From: a bacterium
GTDB lineage: Bacteria; Planctomycetota; Planctomycetia; Planctomycetales; Planctomycetaceae
Reading direction: 5' to 3'
DNA length: 34,196 nucleotides
NCBI GenBank assembly: GCA_016124895.1
Contig: WGMU01000048.1
Coordinates: forward strand, 1 to 34,196
Of the stretch, positions 15,116 to 33,398 are shown one piece after another; position 1 is the first letter of the stretch, and the number at the start of each line of letters is the position of its first letter. The notes under the pieces were generated by a model, which saw only the letters and a program-made list of their open reading frames with translations, ran no database searches and was not told the DNA's origin. The position numbers and the translations under genes are program-made.

Positions 15116-18109
15116 TCAGTTACTCGCCTGAGCGGTCTGTGGCGGAGCGGGCGGCTCGAAGTTGCGGATCGTCTGGCCGTTCGTGCCGTTCCAGATGCGG
15201 ATCACGCCGTCCTCGCCTGCGGCAGCAACGACCGATTGAACGCGCGACGCATCGGCCGCATACATGAAGTCGGTCCCGCCACCGAAGTTGCGGAAGTTAC
15301 TGCCGTTTTCAGCCGTGTGATACCGCACCGTCTGATCGCCGCCCGAGCTGATCGTGTTGCCGCTGACGCCGACAAACGCGATCGACGTCACCTGCTTCGC
15401 GTAGTTCGCGATCGTGCGGACCTGCTCACCGGTTTCGACATTCCAGACCTTGATCGCGTTGTCCGCTCCAGCACTGACGATGCGACTGCCGTCAGCTTTC
15501 CAGGACACGTCCATCACGTGATGCGTGTGACCTTCAAACGAGCGGACGTGCGAGCCATCGGCGACGTTGTGAACCTTGACGAACTTGTCGGCGGCTCCCG
15601 AAACGATCTGCGTGCCGTCGTGGGAGAACTCGATGCCGAACACCGTGTCGCTGTGCGCGTCGGTGATTTCCCGCACGAATTCCCGCTTTGCGACATCCCA
15701 CAGCAGCAGTTCACCGCTGCGCGATGGTTCGCCGCCACCGGTCGCCAGCAGTTTTCCGTCGGGGCTGAAGGCCAGCGCCAGAACGCGAAAGACAAACCGC
15801 GACTTACTGGTATTCAACGGATCGTCTTTCGCCGGTCCGAGTTCACCTGCGAGGTGCCAGCCCGGATTAGCGTCCCACACGGTGGCCTTCTGATCGTCGC
15901 CAGCCGAGATCAGTTGACTGCCTGCGGCAAACGTCAGGCAGCGAATCGGACTGCCTGTTCCACTCAGGAAATCGAGTGGCCGGCCGGCGGCAGCGTCCCA
16001 GACGGTGATCGTGCCATTTTGCGCCGCTGTTGCGACGCGCAACCCATCGGCGGAGAAAGCGACCGCTGTCAGCGGAGCCTCAGCCGCCTTTGCTGCTTCG
16101 GTCGATTTTGCGGCTGCTTCGTCGCGAGCCTTCTGTTCTTCCTGCGACTTCGTGTGCGCCGCCTTGGAAGTTTCGACATCCTGCTTTGCCTTTTCATCCG
16201 CCTTCGTGGCGAGTTCCAGACTGCGGATGGCGGACTTCAGCGCTTCTTCACGCTTCTTCAGTTCGTCCGACTGCTTTTTGAGTTCATCCGTCGGCGCCTT
16301 CAACGCATCGGTTGCCTTCTTGAGCGCTTCGTCAGCAACCTTCAAGGCGTTTGCTGCTTCGTCGGCTGCCTTCTTGAGTTCCTGATCGTCGGCCTTGTCG
16401 GCAGCCGCTTTCGCGGCGGCCTCTGACTTTGCTTTTGCTTCATCGACCGCTTTCTGGGCGGCATTAACGGCGGCTTGAGCTTCGTCGGCCTTCTTCTGAG
16501 CTTCGTCGGCTTTCGGCTTCTGCTCCTCAACGGCTTTCGTCTGCTTGTCCTTTTCCTCGCCGGCTTTCTTCAACGCGTCGGCTCGTTCCGTCGCATTTTT
16601 TTCGGCGGCCTTCTGCGCGGCATCAGCAAGAGCGACGAGCTGCTTCGCAACTTCGGCTTCGTCCTTTTCATGGGCTTCCTGGTGCAGCGCAGTCAGGTTG
16701 CCACGCATCTCAGCGATCTGCTGGCCATTTGCTGCATTCCAGAGTTTCGCCGTGTTGTTCGAACTGGCTGACGCGAACGCCTGCCCGTCGGGTCGCGAGG
16801 CCACTGAGACAACCGGTCCACCATGATTCATCGAGCGAACGTTCTGCCCGTTCGAGAGCTGCCACACGCGCAGCGTGCTGTCGGCCGAGCCGGAAATGAC
16901 CTGATCGGCGTTGCCACCGACACGAGCGAGCGATGTGACCGGGCCGCCGTGACCATTGAGTTCACGCACTGGCTTTTCGGCTTCCTTCTGCTCGCCTTCC
17001 GGAGCGGCCAGGTTCCAGATGCGAATGACCTTGTCCTCGTGAGCAGTCACGATCAGCTTGCCGTCCGTGGACAGGCAGAGGTCGTGAATCGGCGACGGCG
17101 TCTGAATCTGCCGCGTCTGCGATCCACTCTCCAGCGACCAGATCCGGACCGTCTGATCGGCTGATCCCGAGACAACGGACGCACCGTCAGCAGTCAGAGC
17201 GACTCCGTTGACCGAGCCGGTGTGGCCGTCGAGTTTCCTGATCTCGGCACCGTCTTTCAGCGATCGGACAAGTACGGAATTCTGTTGCGTCCCGAAGACC
17301 GCCAGGTCCTTTTCGAGATTGACGTCAACATCGACCGCCACCGCGCCGAGCGCGATGCTCAGTGTCTGAACGTTTTCCGGGCGTTCCCACAGTTTGACGA
17401 CGCGGTAGCCGCCCGATGCGATCAAACGTCCGTTCGGGTGGAAGGCGACTGAATGAACAAAGTCGCGATGAGCGGCCCCGTTCGGATACATCGGCTGTTC
17501 ATTGAACTTCAGGCTGCTCAGCGCAGGATCAATCAGATGTGACTCTTCTCCGGTTGCGAGATTGAAGACGCTGAGCTGATTCGCCCGGCTCGCCGCCACC
17601 TGATCAGCCCACGGTGACAGTGCCAGTGCGTAGGTTGCTTTCATTCCCGCCGGGATCGGCTGCCAGTTCACGGTCTCAGTCGAGTCCTCGGAGTCGCTGA
17701 CGGCGCCTTCGATAATCCACTGGCGGAACAGGCCGAGCTCGCGCGGCGTCAGGGCGGCGGCTTCGACCTTGTTCGGCAGCGGTGGCATGTGCGGCTGCTT
17801 CTTCCGGGCGGCGACCAGGTAGACAAGGCTCTCGTCCGGCTTTCCGGGAACAATGCCGGCACCGCGTTTACCGCCTTTGATCATGCCTGCGGCGTCTTCC
17901 AGTACGAGGCGGCTTTCCGCGCCGCCTTCGTAATGGCACGCCACGCAGTTCAGCTCGATGATATCGAGGATGTCCTTTTCGTAGCTGACCTTGCGGTCGA
18001 GCTTCACTGCTTCCGCTTCGATTGGCTTGCTTTCCGCTTTCTCATCAGCGGCCAGACTGACTGCGGACAGCGACAGGACGATGGAAAACGCAACGAATGA
18101 CCTGATCAT
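15116..18109 (-). CDS. Planctomycete-type cytochrome c fused to WD40 repeats, split by a long coiled coil
   Basis: 997 residues. Signal peptide residues 1-20 (cut near SLA/AD). A single heme motif CVACH at residues 55-59 with a following Met in QPHMPPLP as likely axial ligand gives the planctomycete cytochrome c domain (about 45-135). WD40 repeats follow at about 150-470 (GHTGSVNGVALTADGASVVSG and GHGGPVTSLARVGG are clear), and again at about 677-990 (GHTHHVMDVSWKADGSRIVSAG). Between them, residues about 470-676 are an Ala/Lys/Glu/Asp-rich coiled coil. The mature protein should be extracytoplasmic. GAGG six bases before ATG 18109 sets the start; the upstream ATG at 18166 would put 19 residues before the signal peptide. 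It lies 93 bases after the PPC-type gene, probably one transcript. Role of the heme in a propeller protein is unknown. Confidence 0.9.
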   Translation of the reverse strand: MIRSFVAFSIVLSLSAVSLAADEKAESKPIEAEAVKLDRKVSYEKDILDIIELNCVACHYEGGAESRLVLEDAAGMIKGGKRGAGIVPGKPDESLVYLVAARKKQPHMPPLPNKVEAAALTPRELGLFRQWIIEGAVSDSEDSTETVNWQPIPAGMKATYALALSPWADQVAASRANQLSVFNLATGEESHLIDPALSSLKFNEQPMYPNGAAHRDFVHSVAFHPNGRLIASGGYRVVKLWERPENVQTLSIALGAVAVDVDVNLEKDLAVFGTQQNSVLVRSLKDGAEIRKLDGHTGSVNGVALTADGASVVSGSADQTVRIWSLESGSQTRQIQTPSPIHDLCLSTDGKLIVTAHEDKVIRIWNLAAPEGEQKEAEKPVRELNGHGGPVTSLARVGGNADQVISGSADSTLRVWQLSNGQNVRSMNHGGPVVSVASRPDGQAFASASSNNTAKLWNAANGQQIAEMRGNLTALHQEAHEKDEAEVAKQLVALADAAQKAAEKNATERADALKKAGEEKDKQTKAVEEQKPKADEAQKKADEAQAAVNAAQKAVDEAKAKSEAAAKAAADKADDQELKKAADEAANALKVADEALKKATDALKAPTDELKKQSDELKKREEALKSAIRSLELATKADEKAKQDVETSKAAHTKSQEEQKARDEAAAKSTEAAKAAEAPLTAVAFSADGLRVATAAQNGTITVWDAAAGRPLDFLSGTGSPIRCLTFAAGSQLISAGDDQKATVWDANPGWHLAGELGPAKDDPLNTSKSRFVFRVLALAFSPDGKLLATGGGEPSRSGELLLWDVAKREFVREITDAHSDTVFGIEFSHDGTQIVSGAADKFVKVHNVADGSHVRSFEGHTHHVMDVSWKADGSRIVSAGADNAIKVWNVETGEQVRTIANYAKQVTSIAFVGVSGNTISSGGDQTVRYHTAENGSNFRNFGGGTDFMYAADASRVQSVVAAAGEDGVIRIWNGTNGQTIRNFEPPAPPQTAQASN

Positions 18110-18202
18110 CGCTCGCCTCAATACTTCAAAAGGATTTCGTCTGCTGACCGGAAGCAATTGAAACATGCAGAACCGGATGCGGCAGAACGTGGTGCTGTGG
18201 AG

Positions 18203-21200
18203 TTACTTCTGAACCTTGACAGTGATGGCCGCGTCGGCCGACGTCGGCCCGTTCCAGTCGCTGGTACCGCGAATAAACAGGTTCGCGATCTGACCTTCCG
18301 GAGCGTCTCCTGCGGCCACGATCTTCAGCGTTGCCTCGGTCTGATCCGCGGGGATCGTGACCGCGTCGGCTGACAGACCGGACGAACCCGGCGGCATTGC
18401 CAGACTGACGGTGATCGGCCCTGTGAATCCATTGATCCGTTTGGCCGTGACCTTGATCTCAAGAGACTGCCCCTGCTTGAGGGCTCCGCCGTTGGGAACA
18501 TTTGCCGCGAGAGTAAACGCGCCCTTCGTAATCGTCACAACAATCGGAGTTGTTGGAGCATACACGTTGACGTCTTTTGCGGCGGCGTACTTTTTTGCGT
18601 CGTCGAGTTCCTTGTCAGCGGCTTTCTTCTTCGCGTCTTCCGCCTTGACAGCGTCATCGGCCGTCTTCTTTGCGGCATCGGCCTGCTGCTTGGCGGTCGT
18701 CTTCTGAGTCACCGCCGCCTGTGCGTCGGCCACCTGCTTTTCTGCGGCCGCAACTGTCTCAGTTGCTGTCTTCGTCGCGGTCTGTGCATCAGTGAGAGCC
18801 TTTGCCGCAGCCTGCTGTGCTTCCTGTGCCTTTTTGACTCCCTCATCCGCAGCAGTCTTTGCAGCCGCGGCCGCTTCCTGCTTCTTCTTGAGGTCCTCGT
18901 TGGCGGCATCGGCATTTGCAGCAGCCGTCGCTTCATCAAGTGCTTTCGCAGCGGTTGCGGCCTTTGCAGCAGCGTCAGTCACGACGGCATCGGCTTTCGT
19001 TTTCGCATCGGTTGCTGGTTTCTCTGCGGCCTGAGCCTTCGTCAGATTCGCCTGTTCCGTTTTGACTTTATTCTGCGCGTCAGTCAGTACCTTTGTCGCT
19101 TCGGTCAGCTCGTTCTGAGCCGTGGTGGCCGTGTCGGTCGCTTTCTTCGCCGCTTCCTGAGCAGCCTTGAACGCGTCATCGGCCGCCTTCTGTGACGCCG
19201 TCGCCCGCTCGAGACGTACAGGATTCATCGAATACTTCACTTTGCCCTGAGCCTGCAGGTACAGCGTGTAAGTTCCTTCGGCTGCGTTGTTCGCAATGTC
19301 CAGTCGAGCGATGGCCGTATCTGACCCTTTTTCAATCGCGACGTTGGTCGCGTTGACGTTCTTCGGGACGTTCTGGAATGTGAGCTGAACCTTGTCGTCG
19401 AAGCCTTCGCGTTTGGCGAGCTTGACCGGAACAAGCAACGACCGGTTCTGAGCGACAGTCTCGTGCCCGACGGGTGTCGTTGCCTGATAAGGCGAGAGTT
19501 CGTCCATGACGGACAGCGTCAGTTCGTGGGAGAGTCGCGTATGCGCGGGCTCAACGTTTGATCCATTCCAGACGACTGTCGCCGTCCGTGCGGCGTGTGA
19601 CACGTTGCGGACCGCGGCGTCACGTGCCTGCTGTTTTGCCAGCAGTTCCTTTTCTGCTGCGGAGACGGCCGCAACGCCGGCATTCTTCGCGTCAGTGGCT
19701 GCTTTATTCTTCACGACTTCGGCATCCTGAGCTTTCGTCGCGGCCTGCAGTGCCGCATCCGACTGCTTCGCCTTCGCTTCTGCCTGAGCGAACGCCTGCG
19801 TCTTCTTCTGAGCATCGACCGTCGTGTCCTGAACGACTTTTGCGGCGTCCTGTTGTTTCTTCTTCAGTTCCGCAAGCGTCTGTTCGGCAGTCTTTGCGGC
19901 GGCTTCAGCATCCGTCTTTACCTTTGTCGCCGCTGCCAGAGCGTCCTTCAGCCCCTGGTTCTCCTTGTCCTTATCAAGTGCCTGCTGCGCCGCTTGTTCG
20001 GCAGCGACTGCGTCGGCCAGAGCCTTCTTTGCCTCTGCGACTTTTGTGTCGGCCGCTTTGACTGTTTCGTCGGCCTGCTGAGCGGCTGTCTTTGCATCCG
20101 CGAGAGCTTTCTCGGCAGCGGTCTTCTCAGCAGCCGTCTTGTCGCGTGCCGCAGCGTCGGCCTTCGCAGCTTCAGCAGCTTTGTTTTTTGCATCGGCTGC
20201 TTTGTTAAGAGGATCGACTGTCGCCGCAAGTACCTTGTCGAGATTCGGAATCGCGTCCTGTTTCGATTTGAGGGCCGCTTCAGCCGCAGCAACAGCAGCC
20301 ACAGCGTCTGGTGAATCGATCTTTGCTTCACCAGCGATGCTCAACGGCCACGTCCCGGCCGTTGCATTTTCAGCCGCTGAAAAGACAAGCGTGGCGCTAC
20401 TGGCCTCGCTGCCGATTACAACAGGAGCAGCCGTGACGCCAGGCGGTAACTGAATTGGCTTAACCGTGATGTCGCCCTTGAATCCATGTCGCCGCAGTGC
20501 CGCGACTTCGACCTGCAGATTCTCGCCCTTACGCAGACCAATCGCCCACGTCTGGTAGCCGTTGGCGTTGTTCTGCAAGGGAGCCGGCGGAATGACGGCA
20601 AGTCGGAAGTCAGGTTGCTCTTCTCGAATCGCCAGGTGGTACTGCAGATCCGGTGCGCCACGGGACTCGAAAAACCGATCCCTCAGCGAGATTCGATACA
20701 GCGAGTCAGCAGGAGCGACAAACCGGTAGGAGACGTCGTCGCTGTCGAGGTCAAACAGATTGGCGATACCGGTATTTGCGATGTCATCCTGTGAGGCAAG
20801 TCGTTTGACGGTCTCTGTGCCGTCATCCTTTTTCGTGATCTGGTCAATCGTCAGATAGGGATCGGCTGAACCGCCAAGCCGGCGTGCAAAAACGTCAATC
20901 CAGAAAGCCTGCTGCGCCTTCGCGTCAAACTCGAAGTAGTCAATGTCAGCTCGCTGCTGGAACTGGCCACAGATTTCAGCCGGCACCGTAATCTTTTGAG
21001 CCTTTGTCGCTTCATCATTCGGCTCGACTTCAAGTACGGCCGGCCGCGGTGAGAACGAAATCAGCACGCTGTTCGACGATCCGTTCGCTCCGGTGAACGA
21101 CCACGACGTTCCATCAATGTCGCTTTCACGTGAAAACGGTGCGGCGGCAAACTGCAGTTGATCCGCCGCCTGCGGCAGCGTGATGTCAACATCAAGCTTT

Positions 21201-22048
21201 TCAAGCTGCCGGCCATCTGACCCGATCCCGGCGGGCTGTGACCCCGGCAGATTACGGCCAAAGACCGTGTACTTCGCTTTGCTGCCCGGCACGCCGGTCG
21301 GCGGCACGAGGTAGTCAATGTGCGGACCGGTGTGAACTTTCAAGCGATAGAAATAGTCGTTGTTTCCAGCGTAAACGAAGTCGGTCACGCGCAGGAAATA
21401 TTCGCCGTCTTCGGGAATGGTGACATCAAGCAGCGGGTCGCTGCGGCGCAGTTCGGCAACCGCCCGGCCCAGTCGCCGGCCAGCGTTTGAGTACAGCCGC
21501 AGTTCTCCGTGAAACCGCGAGTCGATACTGAGCGCGGCACATTCAGCGAGAATCCTCTGGCCCTTTTTCGCGCTGAACTTATAGAAGTCGACGTCTGCGC
21601 CGCCGTCGGCCCGGCCGTTGATCACCGAGCCGATCTGAATTTCCTGAGCCTGTTCGGTCGTGGCATTGGCGTTGTTCTCAATGATCTCAGGCAGTCGCCC
21701 GATGACGAATGACCGTGGGTTACTGGTACCGTAAAGAGCGGTCACACGGCATTCGTAAACTCCAGGCTCGACGCTCGGTGCGACCTCGACCGAAAACGTA
21801 TTCCCGCTTTTATGAGTCGCCGTGATTCCGGGATGGTTAAAGCGCATCGCGGAGATTTCGTCGAGATCAGCACCGTTAGTCACGGTCACGTCGACGGTCT
21901 GTCCGGCCTGAGCACCCGGCGGAAATACGGCATACAGACGCGTCTGCGGCAGTTGGGCCTGAGCGGCCCGGCTGAGCGCCGTGACGGCAGCAATGGTGGT
22001 CCAGAACAAAACAACGGACGTTCGCACGAGCACACGGCAGGTCAGCAT
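18203..22048 (-). CDS. Giant exported PPC/Ig-like protein with two coiled-coil inserts
   Basis: 1281 residues. Signal peptide about 1-32 (cut near AQA/QLP). The N-terminal half has Ig/TIG-like strands (TVDVTVTNGADLDEIS) and at least two pre-peptidase C-terminal-like (PPC) domains: ADVDFYKFSAKKGQRI near residue 155 and ADIDYFEFDAKAQQAF near 370. Two long coiled coils rich in Ala, Lys, Asp, Glu, Gln and Thr occupy about residues 578-816 and 946-1161, each bounded by beta-type sequence (VVWNGSNVEPAHTR; KDVNVYAPTTPIVVTI). The C-terminus is a further beta-domain. A GGAG lies 9 bases before the ATG. It sits between the DUF1549/DUF1553 gene and the cytochrome/WD40 gene. No catalytic motif is seen; an envelope structural or docking protein is the best inference. 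The coil regions are low-complexity and may vary in length between strains. Confidence 0.88.
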   Translation of the reverse strand: MLTCRVLVRTSVVLFWTTIAAVTALSRAAQAQLPQTRLYAVFPPGAQAGQTVDVTVTNGADLDEISAMRFNHPGITATHKSGNTFSVEVAPSVEPGVYECRVTALYGTSNPRSFVIGRLPEIIENNANATTEQAQEIQIGSVINGRADGGADVDFYKFSAKKGQRILAECAALSIDSRFHGELRLYSNAGRRLGRAVAELRRSDPLLDVTIPEDGEYFLRVTDFVYAGNNDYFYRLKVHTGPHIDYLVPPTGVPGSKAKYTVFGRNLPGSQPAGIGSDGRQLEKLDVDITLPQAADQLQFAAAPFSRESDIDGTSWSFTGANGSSNSVLISFSPRPAVLEVEPNDEATKAQKITVPAEICGQFQQRADIDYFEFDAKAQQAFWIDVFARRLGGSADPYLTIDQITKKDDGTETVKRLASQDDIANTGIANLFDLDSDDVSYRFVAPADSLYRISLRDRFFESRGAPDLQYHLAIREEQPDFRLAVIPPAPLQNNANGYQTWAIGLRKGENLQVEVAALRRHGFKGDITVKPIQLPPGVTAAPVVIGSEASSATLVFSAAENATAGTWPLSIAGEAKIDSPDAVAAVAAAEAALKSKQDAIPNLDKVLAATVDPLNKAADAKNKAAEAAKADAAARDKTAAEKTAAEKALADAKTAAQQADETVKAADTKVAEAKKALADAVAAEQAAQQALDKDKENQGLKDALAAATKVKTDAEAAAKTAEQTLAELKKKQQDAAKVVQDTTVDAQKKTQAFAQAEAKAKQSDAALQAATKAQDAEVVKNKAATDAKNAGVAAVSAAEKELLAKQQARDAAVRNVSHAARTATVVWNGSNVEPAHTRLSHELTLSVMDELSPYQATTPVGHETVAQNRSLLVPVKLAKREGFDDKVQLTFQNVPKNVNATNVAIEKGSDTAIARLDIANNAAEGTYTLYLQAQGKVKYSMNPVRLERATASQKAADDAFKAAQEAAKKATDTATTAQNELTEATKVLTDAQNKVKTEQANLTKAQAAEKPATDAKTKADAVVTDAAAKAATAAKALDEATAAANADAANEDLKKKQEAAAAAKTAADEGVKKAQEAQQAAAKALTDAQTATKTATETVAAAEKQVADAQAAVTQKTTAKQQADAAKKTADDAVKAEDAKKKAADKELDDAKKYAAAKDVNVYAPTTPIVVTITKGAFTLAANVPNGGALKQGQSLEIKVTAKRINGFTGPITVSLAMPPGSSGLSADAVTIPADQTEATLKIVAAGDAPEGQIANLFIRGTSDWNGPTSADAAITVKVQK

Positions 22049-22390: not shown

Positions 22391-24904
22391 TCAATGGTTG
22401 AACAGGAACTCTTTCGTATTGATCAGAGCCCAGATGATGTCTTCGTAAGCGGTTTTGGGGTCAGCATCGTGCTTCTGGATATGGGCCAGCGCGATCTGCA
22501 GTTCATCGCTGCTGGCTTCGCGCGAATACGCCCAGCGATACAGTTCCTGAATCCGCTCCTCGTGCGAGCGATCCTTGTCATTCGCCAGAAGCTGAGCCCG
22601 GCCCGAACCGCTGGCGATCTTCGTCTGCACTTCCGAGCTATTCAGCAGATGCAGACTCTGAGCGAGGTTCGCTTCCTGAGAGCGTTCGCACTCACAGGCG
22701 GTGTCGCCCTGGGGTTGTCCGAAGACCTTCAGGAAGTACGGGCCGACTGACGCGTCAGGGAGCTGAACCGCTTTGGTGCCACCCGGCAGGCCGCTATAAC
22801 CCTGCGACGAATTCGTGACCTGATGGAAGGCGTCGTACAGCACTTCGGCGGTCAGACGTTTTGGATAGTACCGCGAGAAATTCTGCTTGTCCTTCAGGTT
22901 GTAGTCGTTCGGCAGCGCACTGAGCTGATACGTCCGCGATGTGCAGATCGTCCGGACCAGCCACTTCAGATCGAAGCCGCTCTTGATGAAGTGCTCGGCC
23001 AGGCCGTTGAGCAGTTCCGGATTCGACGGCGGGTTTGTTGCCCGCATGTCGTCTTCCGGTTCGACGATGCCGCGATCAAAGAAATGCTTCCAGTAACGGT
23101 TGACCAGAGCCTTCGCAAAGAACGGGTTATCGTCACGACGGAGCCAGTCAGCGAGATACTGCCGCGGATCCCGGTCCGCAGGAATATCGAGTTGCTCGCC
23201 GCCGAGTCCTGCTGGTTTCAGATTCTGCTTTGTCCGCGGGTTCTGGGCTGTGGCTGCCTTTTCCGTGTGAAAGACGCTCTTGTCGCGGAAGTTACGATTG
23301 CGGGCGCCAACCTCATGCAGGTTTTTCTTGCCGACCGTGCTGAAGAAGGCCGCTAGGCTGTAATAGTCGTTCTGACTCCATTTCTCGAAGGGATGGTGGT
23401 GGCAACGGGCACACTGAATTCGAGTACCGAGGAAAAGCTGAGCGGTGTCTTCCACCTGCTCGTTGACTTCGTCGACTTCGCGATACCAGACGACCGCCGG
23501 ATTTGTTGACGCTTCTCCGGAAGCCGTGACGATTTCCCGTACAAACTGGTCGTAAGGTTTGTTGTTGTAGACCGACTCCCAGATCCAGCGGTACATGGCA
23601 TAGGTGCCATGCAGGTCGTCGTTGGCCCGCTTCTTGTTCCGCAGGACCAGGTTCCACTTGTTGGCAAAGTAGTCCGCGTAAGCTTCGGAATCGAGCAGCC
23701 TGTCGACGAGCTTTTCGCGTTTGTCTGTCGACTTGTCCGCGAGGAATGTGCGGACTTCTTCTTCGGTCGGCAGCGTTCCGGTAATGTCGATATGAACGCG
23801 GCGAAGGTAGGTGGCGTCGTCGCAGACTTCTGATGGCGGGATGCCCAGCAGCTTCAGTTTCGCGAAGACTGCGTTATCGATGAAGTTAATCGGAGCCGGA
23901 ATGTTCGATGTGTCGGCTCCCAGCGGGATGCTGGCGCGGAACGTCGAGACCTGTCCCTGATAGCGGGCCATGATCGCAACCTCACCAGCCAGATCGAGCG
24001 TTTTGATCATGCCGGTTTCCGTCGATTCCGCCATCTCCGGATCGTTGGCTTCAAACAGAGCCATCCGGGTCACGTCTTCGGTCGAACCATCGCTGTACCT
24101 GGCGACGACCGTAATCTGCTGGTCTGACCCTCGGCCCATAATCCGCTGAGCCGGCTGGCATTCGATGCCGACAACGTGCGGATCATCCGGATTGCCGTAC
24201 GGCATTCCCTGTTCGATCCAGCGATACAGCAGACGATACTCGTACGAGCCCTCTTCCATGCGCTTACCGCCACCGTGCGGAGACTTGCCTGTCGCCTTCA
24301 ACAGCAGCAGCGACTCGCTCGGTGACGACGGAAACAGACGGCGGCCACGGGCTTCCTTAACCAGGTACTCGTGATCCTCGTCCGGGTAGAAACCCAGCAG
24401 CGAAAGCTTGAAACCGTTCTGGCCGCTGGCCTTGCCGTGACATCCCCCCGAGTTGCAGCCCAGCTTGGTAAAGACCGGAATGACCTGATTTGTGAAGTTG
24501 ATCGGAATCTGGTGAGCCACGCCTTCGACCCGGACTTTGACGGCGACATCACGACCGTCGACCGACGCTGTGACTTGCGCTTCGCCATCGGCCACGGGAG
24601 TGATCAGGCCGTCGGCAGCGATCTGCACAATGCCTTCCGGGCTGACCGAATACCTGGCCGCCGTCGTACGGTCACGGAACTGACCGGACGAAAACACGCC
24701 GGTGATCACCAGTTGCTGGCGAGCGTCGCGGCCGCGAATGACAATCGCACCATCGGCGGTTTCGATGTCGACACGCAGCGAGTCGAGCACGCCGGGGTCG
24801 CCGAGACCAGCCGGCTCCGCGGGCTTATTCGCCAGCACAGAGGGCGTCGGGAGAACCACTGCCAGGGCAGCCAGCAGACACAGCGAAACCGACGTTCGAA
24901 TCAT
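22391..24904 (-). CDS. Exported BIG2-like / DUF1549 / DUF1553 protein with heme-like motifs
   Basis: 837 residues. Signal peptide 1-25 (PSVLA/NK). Residues about 55-128 are a bacterial Ig-like (BIG2-like) domain (VSPEGIVQIAADGLITPVADGEAQV). A cytochrome-like stretch follows with CNSGGCHG at 150-157: a CX4CH spacing instead of CX2CH. DUF1549 starts near FIDNAVFAKLKLLGI and includes RRVHIDITGTLPTEEEVRTF and CARCHHHPFEKW (a normal CxxCH near residue 500). DUF1553 spans DPRQYLADWL to the C-terminus, with NRYWKHFFDRGIVEP, HLLNSSEVQ and ALINTKEFLFNH. This architecture is very common in planctomycetes; the biochemical function is not established. GAGGA lies 8 bases before the ATG. It is the first gene of the minus-strand block 24904-15116. 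Confidence 0.93.
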   Translation of the reverse strand: MIRTSVSLCLLAALAVVLPTPSVLANKPAEPAGLGDPGVLDSLRVDIETADGAIVIRGRDARQQLVITGVFSSGQFRDRTTAARYSVSPEGIVQIAADGLITPVADGEAQVTASVDGRDVAVKVRVEGVAHQIPINFTNQVIPVFTKLGCNSGGCHGKASGQNGFKLSLLGFYPDEDHEYLVKEARGRRLFPSSPSESLLLLKATGKSPHGGGKRMEEGSYEYRLLYRWIEQGMPYGNPDDPHVVGIECQPAQRIMGRGSDQQITVVARYSDGSTEDVTRMALFEANDPEMAESTETGMIKTLDLAGEVAIMARYQGQVSTFRASIPLGADTSNIPAPINFIDNAVFAKLKLLGIPPSEVCDDATYLRRVHIDITGTLPTEEEVRTFLADKSTDKREKLVDRLLDSEAYADYFANKWNLVLRNKKRANDDLHGTYAMYRWIWESVYNNKPYDQFVREIVTASGEASTNPAVVWYREVDEVNEQVEDTAQLFLGTRIQCARCHHHPFEKWSQNDYYSLAAFFSTVGKKNLHEVGARNRNFRDKSVFHTEKAATAQNPRTKQNLKPAGLGGEQLDIPADRDPRQYLADWLRRDDNPFFAKALVNRYWKHFFDRGIVEPEDDMRATNPPSNPELLNGLAEHFIKSGFDLKWLVRTICTSRTYQLSALPNDYNLKDKQNFSRYYPKRLTAEVLYDAFHQVTNSSQGYSGLPGGTKAVQLPDASVGPYFLKVFGQPQGDTACECERSQEANLAQSLHLLNSSEVQTKIASGSGRAQLLANDKDRSHEERIQELYRWAYSREASSDELQIALAHIQKHDADPKTAYEDIIWALINTKEFLFNH

Positions 24905-29759: not shown

Positions 29760-31442
29760 TCAATGCACGAAGATGAACTCGTTTGAGTTCAACAGAGCCC
29801 AGAAGAGATCCTGATAGGCCGCCAGCTTGTCACGGTTGCCACGGACCAGCCGTGTCGCCATCGAGTTCTCCCGAGTGGTCGGATAACGGCTCAGAGTGTC
29901 GAGATACAGCTTGCGGATCTTGGTTGCGTCTGGCTCGCTGTTTTCCAGAGCATCCCGCAGTGAGCTGCCCTTTTCAGCGCTGACGGCGTTCTGAACGAGT
30001 TCACCATTCATCATCATCAGTGCCTGCGGGATTGTTCCGTTGAATGTAGTGGCTTCGTCGCCTTCGTCGGTGCCGAACGCGATAACGAACTGGCCGAGCC
30101 ACTGCTGTCGCTGCCGCTCCGCCTGTTCCCAGTTCGAGCGGCCCGACTTGTGAGCGCTGGTTGCAACAATCAGAGAATCGTAAAGCTGTTCAGCCTCCAT
30201 TGACTTCACGTACATGTGGCTGAACAGCGGCATTTCACCAGCAGCAGGATTGTCGATTTCGTTATCGCGGCCAACCTGACTGGTCAGGTTGTAAGCCTCG
30301 CTGTTGCAGATCCAGCGAACGAGCTGCTTGAGGTCATAGTTGCTTTTGACGAATTCGGCGGCGAGCCGGTCGTGCAGTTCGGGATGCGACGCGGGATTGT
30401 GCGGCCCCATGTCGTCGATGGGCTTGGTGAAGCCATATCCAAAGAACTGCCCCCACATGCGATTGACCATCGCCATCGCGATCCAGGGTTTGTCTCCTTC
30501 GATGGCCAGCTTTGCCAGCTCTTCCCGCAGGTTCTTTTCGTTGGGGTCGAATTCGTTGAGCTTAAAGGCTTTCAGCTCGAAGTTCGCGTTCATGAACGTG
30601 GGGTCTGCCATCTGCATCAGGCCGTTACGACGTTCGTAGAACACGGGATAGCTGTATTCCTGGAAGACGATCTCGGAGTAATCGTCGACCAGCCGACCGG
30701 TTTCGGGATCCGGTTTGCGGTGATCAATTTTTCGAGCCTGCCGCAGGAAGCTGTTGAACTGCCAGAACCGTTCCTGCTGCCAGTCATTGAATGGATGATT
30801 GTGGCACTGCGTGCATTGAATCTGCAGGCCGAGAAACAATCGGGCAGTCTTTGCCGTTGCCTGAACCATGTCGTCGTTCATGGTCATCTGCGCGAGCATG
30901 TAGTTGACGGCGCCGTTCTCATCGAATCGCCCTTCTGCGGAAATCAGGTCATAAACAACCTGGTCCCACGGGCGATTGCGGGCGAAAGCTTCGCGGAAGA
31001 ACTTCTGCATCCCGTCGCGGCTGACGCGCCGTGGTGTCTGGCGTCCGATGCACAGATTGGTCCAGATCGTCGTAAAGTTACGGACGTAGCCCTCATCGTC
31101 GAGCAGCGTGTCGATCAGCTTAGCACGTTTGGCCGGGTCTTTGTCTTTCAGGAATCTGTCGACGACATCGCCTTCTGGAATGTGGCCGACAATGTCGAGA
31201 TGCACGCGACGAATCCATTCGGAATCGTCAGCGAGGCCAGACGGCTTGATCTCGTTGTCTTCCCAGCCCTGCCGAATCCGACCATTGATGAAATCGATGA
31301 GTTCGCCTGACGAACCGGTCGTGAACGGGGCGTCGCCGGCAGATCGCCGCGACCGGGACTGAGCATCGGCGGTCGAAACCAGCAGGGACGAGGCGACGAC
31401 ACCGAACGCGATCAGACGCAGAGCCAAACTCAGCATTCTCAT
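29760..31442 (-). CDS. Exported DUF1549/DUF1553 protein
   Basis: 560 residues. Signal peptide about 1-27 (cut near ADA/QS). DUF1549 covers about residues 45-255, with [21 protein letters not shown] and the heme-like [14 protein letters not shown] (CxxCH near residue 211). DUF1553 follows: [46 protein letters not shown] and the characteristic end [12 protein letters not shown]. It is shorter than the paralogue at 22391-24904 and lacks the Ig-like and CX4CH parts. In planctomycetes these genes are usually next to a DUF1501 gene; none is found here. AGGAG eight bases before the ATG supports the start. The frameshifted sulfatase gene ends 149 bases upstream, so both could belong to one transcript. 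Function of the family unknown. Confidence 0.93.
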
Positions 31443-31591: not shown

Positions 31592-33039
31592 TCATTTCTC
31601 CGGAAACTGCCATTTGACACCCTCGTCGCGCACTTCGCGATGCCGGGCGACCAGTGTTTTCCGCATTTCCTGCAGTCGCTGAGGTTCAGATGCCGCCAGA
31701 TCGTGCTGCTGGGGCGGGTCGTCCTTCAGGTTGAAAAGTTCAAACTCCGTCAGCTCTTCTGCAGCGATGACGGCCATTGATGCTGCGTCGACGTTCCGGC
31801 CCGGCGTGTTCGGGCCGGCTGATCGGTGACCCAGGATCATCCAGTCGCCGATCCGCATCGCGGCTTTGGGAACTCCCAGAGCCCGGTAGTAATGCCAGTA
31901 AAGCGGCCGATCTCGCCGCACCGGTTTTCCCGCGAGCAGTGAGACGGCGCTCGCTCCGTCGTACCTGCGATCTCCAGGGACATCGACATTTGCCAGCTCA
32001 CACAGCGTCGGCAGGACGTCGAGTCCGCAAAACGGCTCGGCGGTCTCCTGTCCCGGTTTGATACGTCCGGTCCAGCGCAGAATACCGGGTACGCGGATTC
32101 CACCTTCGTACATCCACAGCTTCATCCCACGCAGTGGTCCGGGCGAGCCGTACGAGCGATTCGCCGTGCGATAGCGGTTCAGCGTTTCCGGACCGTTGTC
32201 CGATGTGAAGAGGATCAGTGTCTCGTCGCCGAGCTTCAGATCGTCGATTGTGCGGACAATTCGACCGGCCGCGGCGTCCATGTTGGTCACGTTCGCAAAG
32301 AACTGAGCCTGATCCTCAGTCACAGCGACATCCTTGTACGAGTTGACCAGATCGCGCGGCGAAGCGACTGGCTCATGCGGCTCGTGAAAGCACACAAACA
32401 GAAAGAACGGTCGCTCGGCATCACGTTTCGTTTTCAGCCAGTCGATCGCTTCATTGGCGACGAGCTGACACGAGTAGCCTTCCTGCGGGCCAACCGCCCG
32501 ATGATTCCGCACGAAGTTCCGCGGATTCTCGTGCGACGGCGCTGCGTTGTTCTGCGTCGAGAACCAGTGAGCAAACCCGTGATCGTCAGGCGTGGCTGCT
32601 CGTCACTGTTGAACCTGCCGTTGCAGTGCCACTTGCCGACGTGAGCCGTATCGTAGCCATTACCCTTCAGCAGTGTCGCGATGGTGATCTCATTTTTTGT
32701 CAGATGAACGAGATGGTCTTCTGGAATCCAGTCGTACACGCCAACGCGGCTTGGCGTTCGACCAGTCAGCAGTCCGGCTCGCGAGGATGAGCAGACCGGC
32801 GCGGACGAGTAGCACGACGTCAGGCGGATTCCCTGAGCGGCCAGCCGGTCGAGATTGGGTGTCCGAATATGAGGATGCCCGAAGCATCCGAGGTCTCCGT
32901 AGCCGAGATCGTCGCACAGGATGACAACGAAGTTCGGCCGCCTGGTCGAATCAGCAGCGTTCCCGGCGGACACGGTTTCAACCCGCGACACGAAGAGGCT
33001 GAGGGCGGCGGCTGTCAGCAGCAGAAAACGGTTCAGCAC
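31592..33039 (-). pseudogene. Arylsulfatase-family gene broken by a single-base frameshift
   Basis: Two reading frames join into one sulfatase. The N-part starts at GTG 33039 (AAAGGA 8 bases upstream) with a signal peptide (to about residue 25), then metal ligands in LCDDLGYGDLG, the formylglycine site CSSSRAGLLTG (Cys83; Ser instead of the usual Pro at +2) and HVGKWHCNG. After SDEQP (residue 149) the frame degenerates and stops at 32434. One extra base near 32593-32596 would continue as TPDDHGFAHWFSTQNNAAPS and on through FHEPHEP, FTSDNGPE and GGIRVPGILRW to the stop at 31592. The span is 1448 bases, one short of 483 codons, as expected for a one-base loss. Everything else is intact, so this is a very recent mutation or a sequencing error. 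The intact enzyme would cleave sulfate esters, probably of polysaccharides, outside the cytoplasm. Confidence 0.9.
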
Positions 33040-33398
33040 GTCGTTGGTCCTTTCACGAGGCGTTGGGCAGCAATCGAAAGTCGGTCTGATTAACAACGGC
33101 GATTCTGGCGACGACGTGTGAGCGTTTCCACCGCGGAGCCGACTGCACCGGCACGCCGGTCCCTGCTGTTCCGGTCGCTTCAACTGTTGCAATTGTCATC
33201 GCCAGTGCGAAGAGTCGATCCGTTGTGTTGTTCCTGGTTTGACGGACGGCTGAGTCAACGTAGCTTTGCGTCCTGCTCGCAGGGGACGCGGGTCGTCATC
33301 GGGAGCAGGGATGCGCGAACGACGATGGAACAGCGATTCGTCTGCGGTGGTGTTGTGACTCGGCGTGACGCTGCGAGATTCGAAAAAGGTCTACGGGA
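33040..33398. other. Divergent intergenic region with one small hairpin
   Basis: 359 bases between the sulfatase start (minus) and the pseudopilin start (plus). A small hairpin is formed by GCGTCC-TGC / GCA-gg-GGACGC at 33268-33289. I see no gene, no clear promoter and no longer repeat. Confidence 0.5.
33048..33053 (-). promoter_or_regulatory. Ribosome binding site supporting a GTG start of the sulfatase
   Basis: AAAGGA on the minus strand, eight bases before GTG 33039-33037, which places the signal peptide at the very N-terminus. An in-frame ATG at 33192 would add 51 unrelated residues. Confidence 0.65.

Follow-up and report, generated by a model that had tools for sequence, protein, structure and literature searches.

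What are the long stretches of low-complexity sequence that interrupt two neighbouring exported proteins of a planctomycete, and what could they be for? The question is raised by a 34,196-nt stretch of DNA (contig WGMU01000048.1 of assembly GCA_016124895.1, Planctomycetaceae; hereafter the window, whose positions serve as coordinates for its own locus), in which three consecutive genes, all on the minus strand, encode in this order a DUF1549/DUF1553 protein (PS), a PPC-type protein (PP) and a cytochrome c/WD40 protein (WD). Stretches rich in Ala, Lys, Asp, Glu and Thr occur twice in PP (coils A and B) and once in WD. An original prediction, made from the letters alone, had described three such stretches of 207 (WD), 239 (coil A) and 216 (coil B) residues between beta domains; they are real and measure 204, 233 and 213 residues in our models. 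They look like selected structural arms and not like random repeats. We contend that they are probably hairpins that serve two linked, exported proteins as rigid arms of controlled length, with a spacer or docking role in a heme-protein assembly.

AlphaFold2 models were computed from alignments of 34 (PP) and 31 (WD) sequences from the window and from relatives' loci, and reached a mean predicted local distance difference test score (pLDDT) of 89.4 for PP residues 479-1281 and 90.2 for WD residues 40-1016. In all three coils the models contain two long helices of near-equal length (100-115 residues each, as assigned by DSSP) joined by a turn of four residues, which at 0.15 nm per residue gives arms of about 15-17 nm. 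The WD hairpin spans residues 491-694 (positions 16085-16696, minus strand), with helices at 491-590 and 595-694 and the turn at 591-594. Coil A of PP covers residues 580-812 (19613-20311, minus strand; helices 580-693 and 698-812) and coil B residues 943-1155 (18584-19222, minus strand; helices 943-1046 and 1051-1155). The two helices of each hairpin would presumably pack side by side in antiparallel fashion over the whole arm length. Disordered linkers, the alternative weighed at the outset, are not supported by these helix pairs. The WD model has 28 strands, i.e., seven blades, ahead of the hairpin (residues 181-487; 16706-17626, minus strand) and 28 behind it (residues 699-1003; 15158-16072, minus strand), so that the hairpin joins two seven-blade propellers. 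It thus does lie between WD40 parts, as had been proposed, but not between two halves of a single array inside a propeller.

The arms also carry the periodicity expected of coiled coils. The best hydrophobic period was 3.49-3.50 residues (heptads) in all six arms of the window, and exceeded composition-preserving shuffles (1000 each) at p<0.001 in four arms and at p values of 0.016 and 0.025 in the other two. Across homologues, identity autocorrelation peaks at lags 7, 14 and 21, and also at 42 in PP coil B. Internal similarity at 21 residues is the top lag in both PP coils and is second to 7 in WD. A unit of 21 residues is visible in the PP coil DNA of one relative (locus L051, 5236-8427), where a 93-bp repeat recurs at an offset of exactly 63 bp (21 codons, 85% identity).

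Relatives were collected from 59 related genomes, 46 of which gave a match at E 1e-60, and from named genome contigs, from which 80 loci were kept of 550 relatives among the matches listed; both sources together provided 120 neighbourhoods. The gene pair is conserved beyond this genome: the PS-PP-WD triad with coils in both PP and WD recurs in planctomycetes and also in Verrucomicrobia. The named contigs are labelled as Planctomycetaceae, other planctomycetes, Verrucomicrobia and, twice, Acidobacteria, where PP or WD is cut off and coils are thus not visible. When PS, PP and WD stand in succession, coils are usually present in both PP and WD, and several genomes hold another set with coils, in which WD is longer (1329-1663 amino acids). 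The analyses below use 53 loci, namely the non-duplicate ones among 121 (the window and L041-L160) that have PS, a PP not running off the contig, and WD, with both PP and WD coiled; two WD genes truncated by the contig end downstream of the coil were retained. For the 63 B coils and 25 A coils no WD was required.

One indication that these hairpins are controlled structures is that their two arms change length in lock-step. Arm lengths are residue counts from the beta-domain root up to the turn and from there down to the root again; the position of the turn was taken from the alignment. In WD the two arms correlate with r 0.979 (n=53), and their difference is exactly 7 residues in 28 of the 53 coils and 5-8 residues in 38. 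The corresponding values are r 0.985 (n=25), with a difference of 2 in 18 of 25, for coil A, and r 0.950 (n=63), with a difference of 5 in 22 of 63, for coil B. Within these modal sets the N-terminal arms fall into few length classes: 87, 108, 129 and 150 residues in 26 of 28 WD coils (the remaining two have 154 and 178), 61, 103, 124 and 166 in 18/18 A coils, and 93, 114, 135 and 156 in 21 of 22 B coils (the remaining one has 58). The steps are 21 residues or multiples thereof, i.e., three heptads per arm. A hairpin accounts for such matched extension of both arms, which a loose linker does not explain. When the turn was located by a sequence motif instead, the modal difference was recovered in 43 of the 57 coils with a unique motif (18/27 in WD, 15/15 in coil A and 10/15 in coil B), and the difference spread over 49, 0 and 47 residues in WD, coil A and coil B, respectively, compared with 123, 99 and 122 at random positions. 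No unique turn motif was present in 26 of 53 WD coils, 48 of 63 B coils and 10 of 25 A coils.

Several observations weigh against rigid arms of controlled length. Because the loci share ancestry, equal lengths in several of them do not count as independent cases. Beyond the modal classes the arm differences scatter, from -37 to 23 in WD, from -31 to 16 in coil B and from -22 to 10 in coil A. Steps of 42 residues, when assessed on distinct total lengths, are significant for coil A alone (p 0.0014; WD 0.078; coil B 0.154). Motif-located turns reduce the plain correlation between arms to 0.41 in WD and 0.02 in coil B, which we attribute to a few far outliers that are probably wrong motif hits. 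The orientation of domains in the PP model is uncertain (predicted template modelling score, pTM, 0.56). Finally, gene pairs without coils exist, and the arms are therefore not essential to the family.

If the arm reading is right, the three coils would be rigid antiparallel alpha-helical hairpins rooted in beta domains, with each root held by the adjoining beta modules, which are the two propellers in WD and beta sandwiches in PP. Their polar tips would point outward, where they could set a distance or serve as a surface for docking within an exported assembly of heme proteins. PS, PP and WD may form one such complex, presumably placed in the periplasm or at the cell surface.

Whether the coils of PP and WD go together was examined in 69 pairs, i.e., the non-duplicate ones among 141 loci (L203-L222 added) in which both genes are complete and adjacent and WD scores above 150 bits; more distant WD neighbours were excluded. 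Presence is associated across the two genes, in agreement with the original prediction: both proteins are coiled in 54 pairs and neither is in 11, three pairs have a coil in WD only and one in PP only (Fisher p 2.3e-9, uncorrected for relatedness). The 11 coil-less pairs form two clades of five and six loci on a midpoint-rooted PP tree, with a support of 1.0 each, although their separate placement rests on weaker branches; parsimony on this tree requires four changes for the PP coil and three for the WD coil. In L079 and L080, WD aligns on either side of the coil while the coil region itself is missing, so the coil behaves as a discrete module. In the six-locus coil-less clade, WD has 481-507 amino acids and is too short for two propellers. 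Cases of the kind named in advance as refuting the pairing do occur, in four loci: L121, L122 and L147 have kept the WD coil whereas their PP shows none at the threshold (in L147 the eye still makes out a short remnant in the PP scored as coil-less), and L075 combines a PP coil with a coil-less WD.

The idea that coil lengths co-vary between the two genes did not hold up. Total coil lengths, analysed with the PS tree and contrasts, show no co-variation between WD and coil B (Spearman -0.23, contrast r -0.04, n=53); without the four loci with copied tips described below, the values are -0.31 (p 0.03) and -0.04. Between WD and coil A a correlation is present and not robust (Spearman 0.62, p 0.0014; contrast r 0.34, p 0.08; n=24; without the four loci, Spearman 0.41, p 0.07, and contrast r 0.61, p 0.15). 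The sister loci L042 and L082, in which only the WD coil differs in length, are a further refuting case. They share 92% identity in PS, 68% in PP (55% in coil A, 59% in coil B) and 78% in WD, and their A coils (246 residues) and B coils (223 residues) are of equal length, whereas the WD coil totals 349 residues in L042 and 209 in L082. One hairpin can therefore gain 140 residues and a PP-type tip without any change in the length of the two partner coils.

That PP-type tip is one of several cases in which sequence has been copied between the two genes. In four of the 53 loci (L042, L043, L057 and L085), long DNA matches connect the centre of the WD coil with a PP coil encoded in the same locus, with 71-82% identity over 161-476 bp. 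The WD tip of L042 matches coil B (476 bp, 77%), that of L043 matches coil A (464 bp, 77%) and coil B (461 bp, 71%), that of L057 matches coil A (287 bp, 76%) and coil B (161 bp, 82%), and that of L085 matches coil B (240 bp, 78%) and coil A (301 bp, 74%); in L085 coils A and B also match each other (416 bp, 86%). The copied segment is central in the WD coil of L042 (flanks 70/74) and L057 (82/82), and less evenly placed in L043 (48/37, against coil B) and L085 (70/52). L057 and L085 are sisters, and L082, without a copy, separates L042 from L043 on the tree, which indicates two or three origins. For the two tips searched against their own whole genomes, the copies are confined to the locus as far as candidates were scored: in genome G032 the L042 tip occurs at two places of the locus, with one 31-bp match and no other substantial copy elsewhere (40 of 41 candidates scored), and in genome G007 the L043 tip occurs only at three places within the locus (40 of 51 candidates scored). 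The proposal of a single repeat source that spread inside the locus thus holds literally for these four loci and not for the window's own, where the DNA comparison revealed no tip copy between PP and WD. Shorter matches of 19-113 bp between the two genes occur in many other loci, and L144 (z 11) and L086 (25 of 41 tip residues alike) are suggestive at the protein level only. Matches of 100% over 74-964 bp were rejected as copies, as they are overlapping readings of open reading frames (ORFs).

Outside the four loci, tip likeness is a matter of protein and not of DNA, as judged from codon identity at matched tip residues. For WD and coil B it amounts to 55/88 in the four copy loci against 38.4 expected, and to 198/486 against 206.7 in the others; for WD and coil A the figures are 39/77 against 32.6 and 113/249 against 105.1, the latter close to expectation. 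In a first permutation test, from which the four copy loci were excluded, WD tip 41-mers resembled the PP tip 41-mers of their own locus more than those of other loci (coil A: p 0.0055, n=20; coil B: 0 of 2000 permutations, n=49), and root 41-mers showed no within-locus excess (p 0.86 and 0.50). With canonical turns and thinned relatives the result survives (p 0.021, n=12, and 0.0002, n=15), but the tips in this thinned set do not match consistently better than they do with the partner of the nearest relative (6/12 and 8/15 positive). Given this inconsistency and the codon identities near expectation, we rejected an ongoing matching of tips in most loci and claim only the four cases at DNA level.

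These results bear on several other explanations, which, like that of structural arms, are not mutually exclusive. The PP and WD hairpins could bind each other through their tips or sides and so form the interface of the two proteins, as the associated presence in the 69 pairs, the joint absence in two clades, the tips shared at DNA level and the likeness of tips but not roots, which persists without the four loci and after thinning, would suggest. We nevertheless regard such binding as rather unlikely: the lengths do not co-vary robustly, four pairs have a coil in one protein only, WD alone changed its length between L042 and L082, the match in the thinned set brings no consistent gain over the nearest relative's partner, and there is little or no codon excess outside the four loci. 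A more specific variant, in which the hairpins of PP and WD meet tip to tip as a homotypic key whose length may drift while the tip must match, appears quite doubtful. The same degree of doubt applies to the evolutionary course that it entails, namely separate evolution of the roots, with the tips copied from one neighbouring gene to the other by selection and gene conversion. Both fit the observed tip copies and the finding that tips, unlike roots, show an excess of similarity within loci; under the stricter control, this excess is significant by permutation and inconsistent against nearest relatives. If true, tip-to-tip matching would give two exported proteins of a heme-protein complex a recognition interface that updates itself.

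Ala-rich antiparallel coils commonly form homotypic hairpin bundles, and each protein might also di- or polymerise through its own hairpins, with the likeness between neighbours due to ancestry and local gene conversion only. Independent lengths of WD and coil B fit separate self-assembly, but coils acting separately leave their joint absence in two clades unexplained, and we consider this explanation unlikely. Little-functional simple-sequence expansion, spreading by slippage and local recombination, might be suspected from the low-complexity Ala/Lys/Asp/Glu sequence, the 21-residue similarity (strongest in the PP coils), the 63-bp-spaced repeat of L051, the copying between neighbouring genes and the large variation in length. 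It is very improbable, since slippage in one arm would desynchronise the two, yet their offsets are residue-exact in many coils; the heptads are kept, and codon identity at matched tips is near expectation outside the four loci. Length-controlled structural arms are the strongest reading.

The proteins that carry these arms consist otherwise of known domains. The WD gene (15116-18166, minus strand) encodes 1016 amino acids from the first ATG, although Met20 is the likelier start as read by eye. A PSCyt1 domain (PF07635; residues 74-129, 17780-17947, minus strand) was detected with 40.5 bits against a cut-off of 22 (E 4.3e-10), and WD40 repeats (PF00400) with 252 bits against 27 in 10 stretches; its motif CVACH, of the CxxCH type, is a putative site of covalent heme attachment. 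PP (18203-22048, minus strand; 1281 amino acids) contains a PPC domain (PF04151; residues 152-222, 21383-21595, minus strand) with 46.5 bits against a cut-off of 25.9. The third member of the triad, PS (PSCyt2-PSD1; 22391-24904, minus strand; 837 amino acids), matches PF07583 with 183.5 bits (cut-off 29.8) and PF07587 with 159.4 bits (cut-off 28.5). The connection with heme proteins that had been suspected is thus borne out by the PSCyt1 domain of WD and the DUF1549/DUF1553 protein encoded upstream. Read by eye, PS, PP and WD each have an apparent Sec signal peptide. A composition scan found no coil in the PS of the window; candidates of 48-92 residues in 11 other PS proteins were dismissed as the ordinary end of DUF1553, mostly with a Lys-rich tail.

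Further observations concern the surroundings and individual relatives. A second, shorter DUF1549/DUF1553 gene (29760-31442, minus strand) lies near a sulfatase-like ORF (31592-32512, minus strand) whose match to the Pfam sulfatase profile is limited to the second half (positions 136-301). Another ORF, at 32434-33192 (minus strand), overlaps the upstream end of the sulfatase-like ORF, and the arrangement may reflect a frameshift or a split gene. The genome has 61 PSCyt1-like places. A second coil-bearing set is apparently split across two contig ends (L183 at the end of contig C1, L064 at the end of C157), with a WD of 1642 amino acids containing a 264-residue coil and the C-terminal part of a PP with a 173-residue coil. 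Elsewhere in this genome, PSCyt1 proteins with coils in other positions are found in L186 (2810-4777; N-terminal coil of 191 residues), L189 (1137-3923; C-terminal coil of 433 residues), L185 (3059-6313) and L190 (3112-6549), and these coils showed no sequence relation to the triad hairpins. The WD proteins of the sister loci L057 (residues 317-402) and L085 (residues 345-428) have an extra coil-like stretch of 84-86 residues where the first propeller lies, N-terminal to their main coil. PS in L061 (3157-5688) and PP in L081 (12649-16128) and L102 (11992-15221) are broken into two or more ORFs, through damage or assembly error.

With respect to known systems, the closest relatives by domain content are the PSCyt1-3/PSD1-5 proteins of freshwater Verrucomicrobia (PMC5615132) and Rhodopirellula baltica (PMC2754498), which in the passages devoted to them share PSCyt1, PSCyt2/DUF1549, PSD1/DUF1553 and WD40 domains, the same phyla and conserved gene neighbourhoods with the triad. 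The functions of these genes and of their neighbourhoods were called unknown in a 2017 study (PMC5615132), and DUF1549 and DUF1553 occur 41 times each in R. baltica according to PMC2754498. Neither set of PSCyt passages mentions hairpins, lock-step lengths or tip copying, and the words "coil" and "PPC" are absent from the main text of PMC5615132. Among the open-licence papers listed in searches for this triad, no title or abstract start contained a description of its hairpins. The domain families are known, and within the scope of those listings the hairpins in the PS-PP-WD triad appear to be an undescribed variant. This matters in that planctomycetes and related bacteria have many copies of PSCyt/DUF1549/DUF1553 genes, and since two of the three linked proteins bear arms of fixed length, one can test the proposal of a physical complex in which spacing is defined. 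The natural tip copies are ready-made variants for such work, and the lock-step arms represent a natural data set on length change in antiparallel coiled coils.

Periplasmic adaptors of the HlyD/MacA type have a hairpin set in beta domains, and are marked by lipoyl and adaptor beta-barrel domains. In PP, Pfam searches at E up to 0.1 gave only PPC and a sub-threshold MG2, although a divergent adaptor domain could be missed in this way. The propellers of WD resemble those of an Aip1 homologue (1nr0, which has two propellers per chain; Foldseek E 5.7e-27), Pwp2 (5i2t; 1.2e-28) and a highly repetitive propeller protein (2ymu; 4.5e-40), with TM-scores (template modelling) of 0.23-0.24 against the whole WD model; unlike these tandem-propeller proteins, WD has an N-terminal PSCyt1 domain and the 204-residue hairpin between its propellers. 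Coil B resembles the SteB-RipA coiled coil (9hmx; Z 13.1, root-mean-square deviation (rmsd) 3.5, 182 aligned residues) and SH3BP5 (6ixf; Z 12.3, rmsd 28.6, 217 aligned), both of which have different partner domains, and the likeness, shown without any sequence relation, may reflect a common arrangement of long helices only. Since many long helical pairs match in this manner, we claim no fold relationship for the hairpins.

The closest analogue for arms of restricted length is SMC, whose long intramolecular coiled coil likewise falls into length classes: according to a 2017 study, the arms found in nature differ by steps of some 100 residues, and arms that are resized function in certain length ranges only (PMC5344682). 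Coil A of PP aligns with Smc arms (5xg2, Z 13.2, rmsd 4.6, 235 aligned residues; 5nnv, Z 12.8, rmsd 4.7, 239 aligned), a Z near 13 being typical of long helices that possibly share a common arrangement only. WD and PP are not SMC proteins: no SMC domain is among their Pfam families (for WD, among the best 25 of 53), and the NCBIfam model SMC_prok_B reaches 22.5 bits in WD against a cut-off of 567.35, over residues 403-696 only. Whereas SMC possesses ATPase heads and a hinge and has arms that differ by about 100 residues per step, the triad sets its arms in exported beta-domain and heme proteins, closes them with a four-residue turn and varies them in steps of 21 residues.

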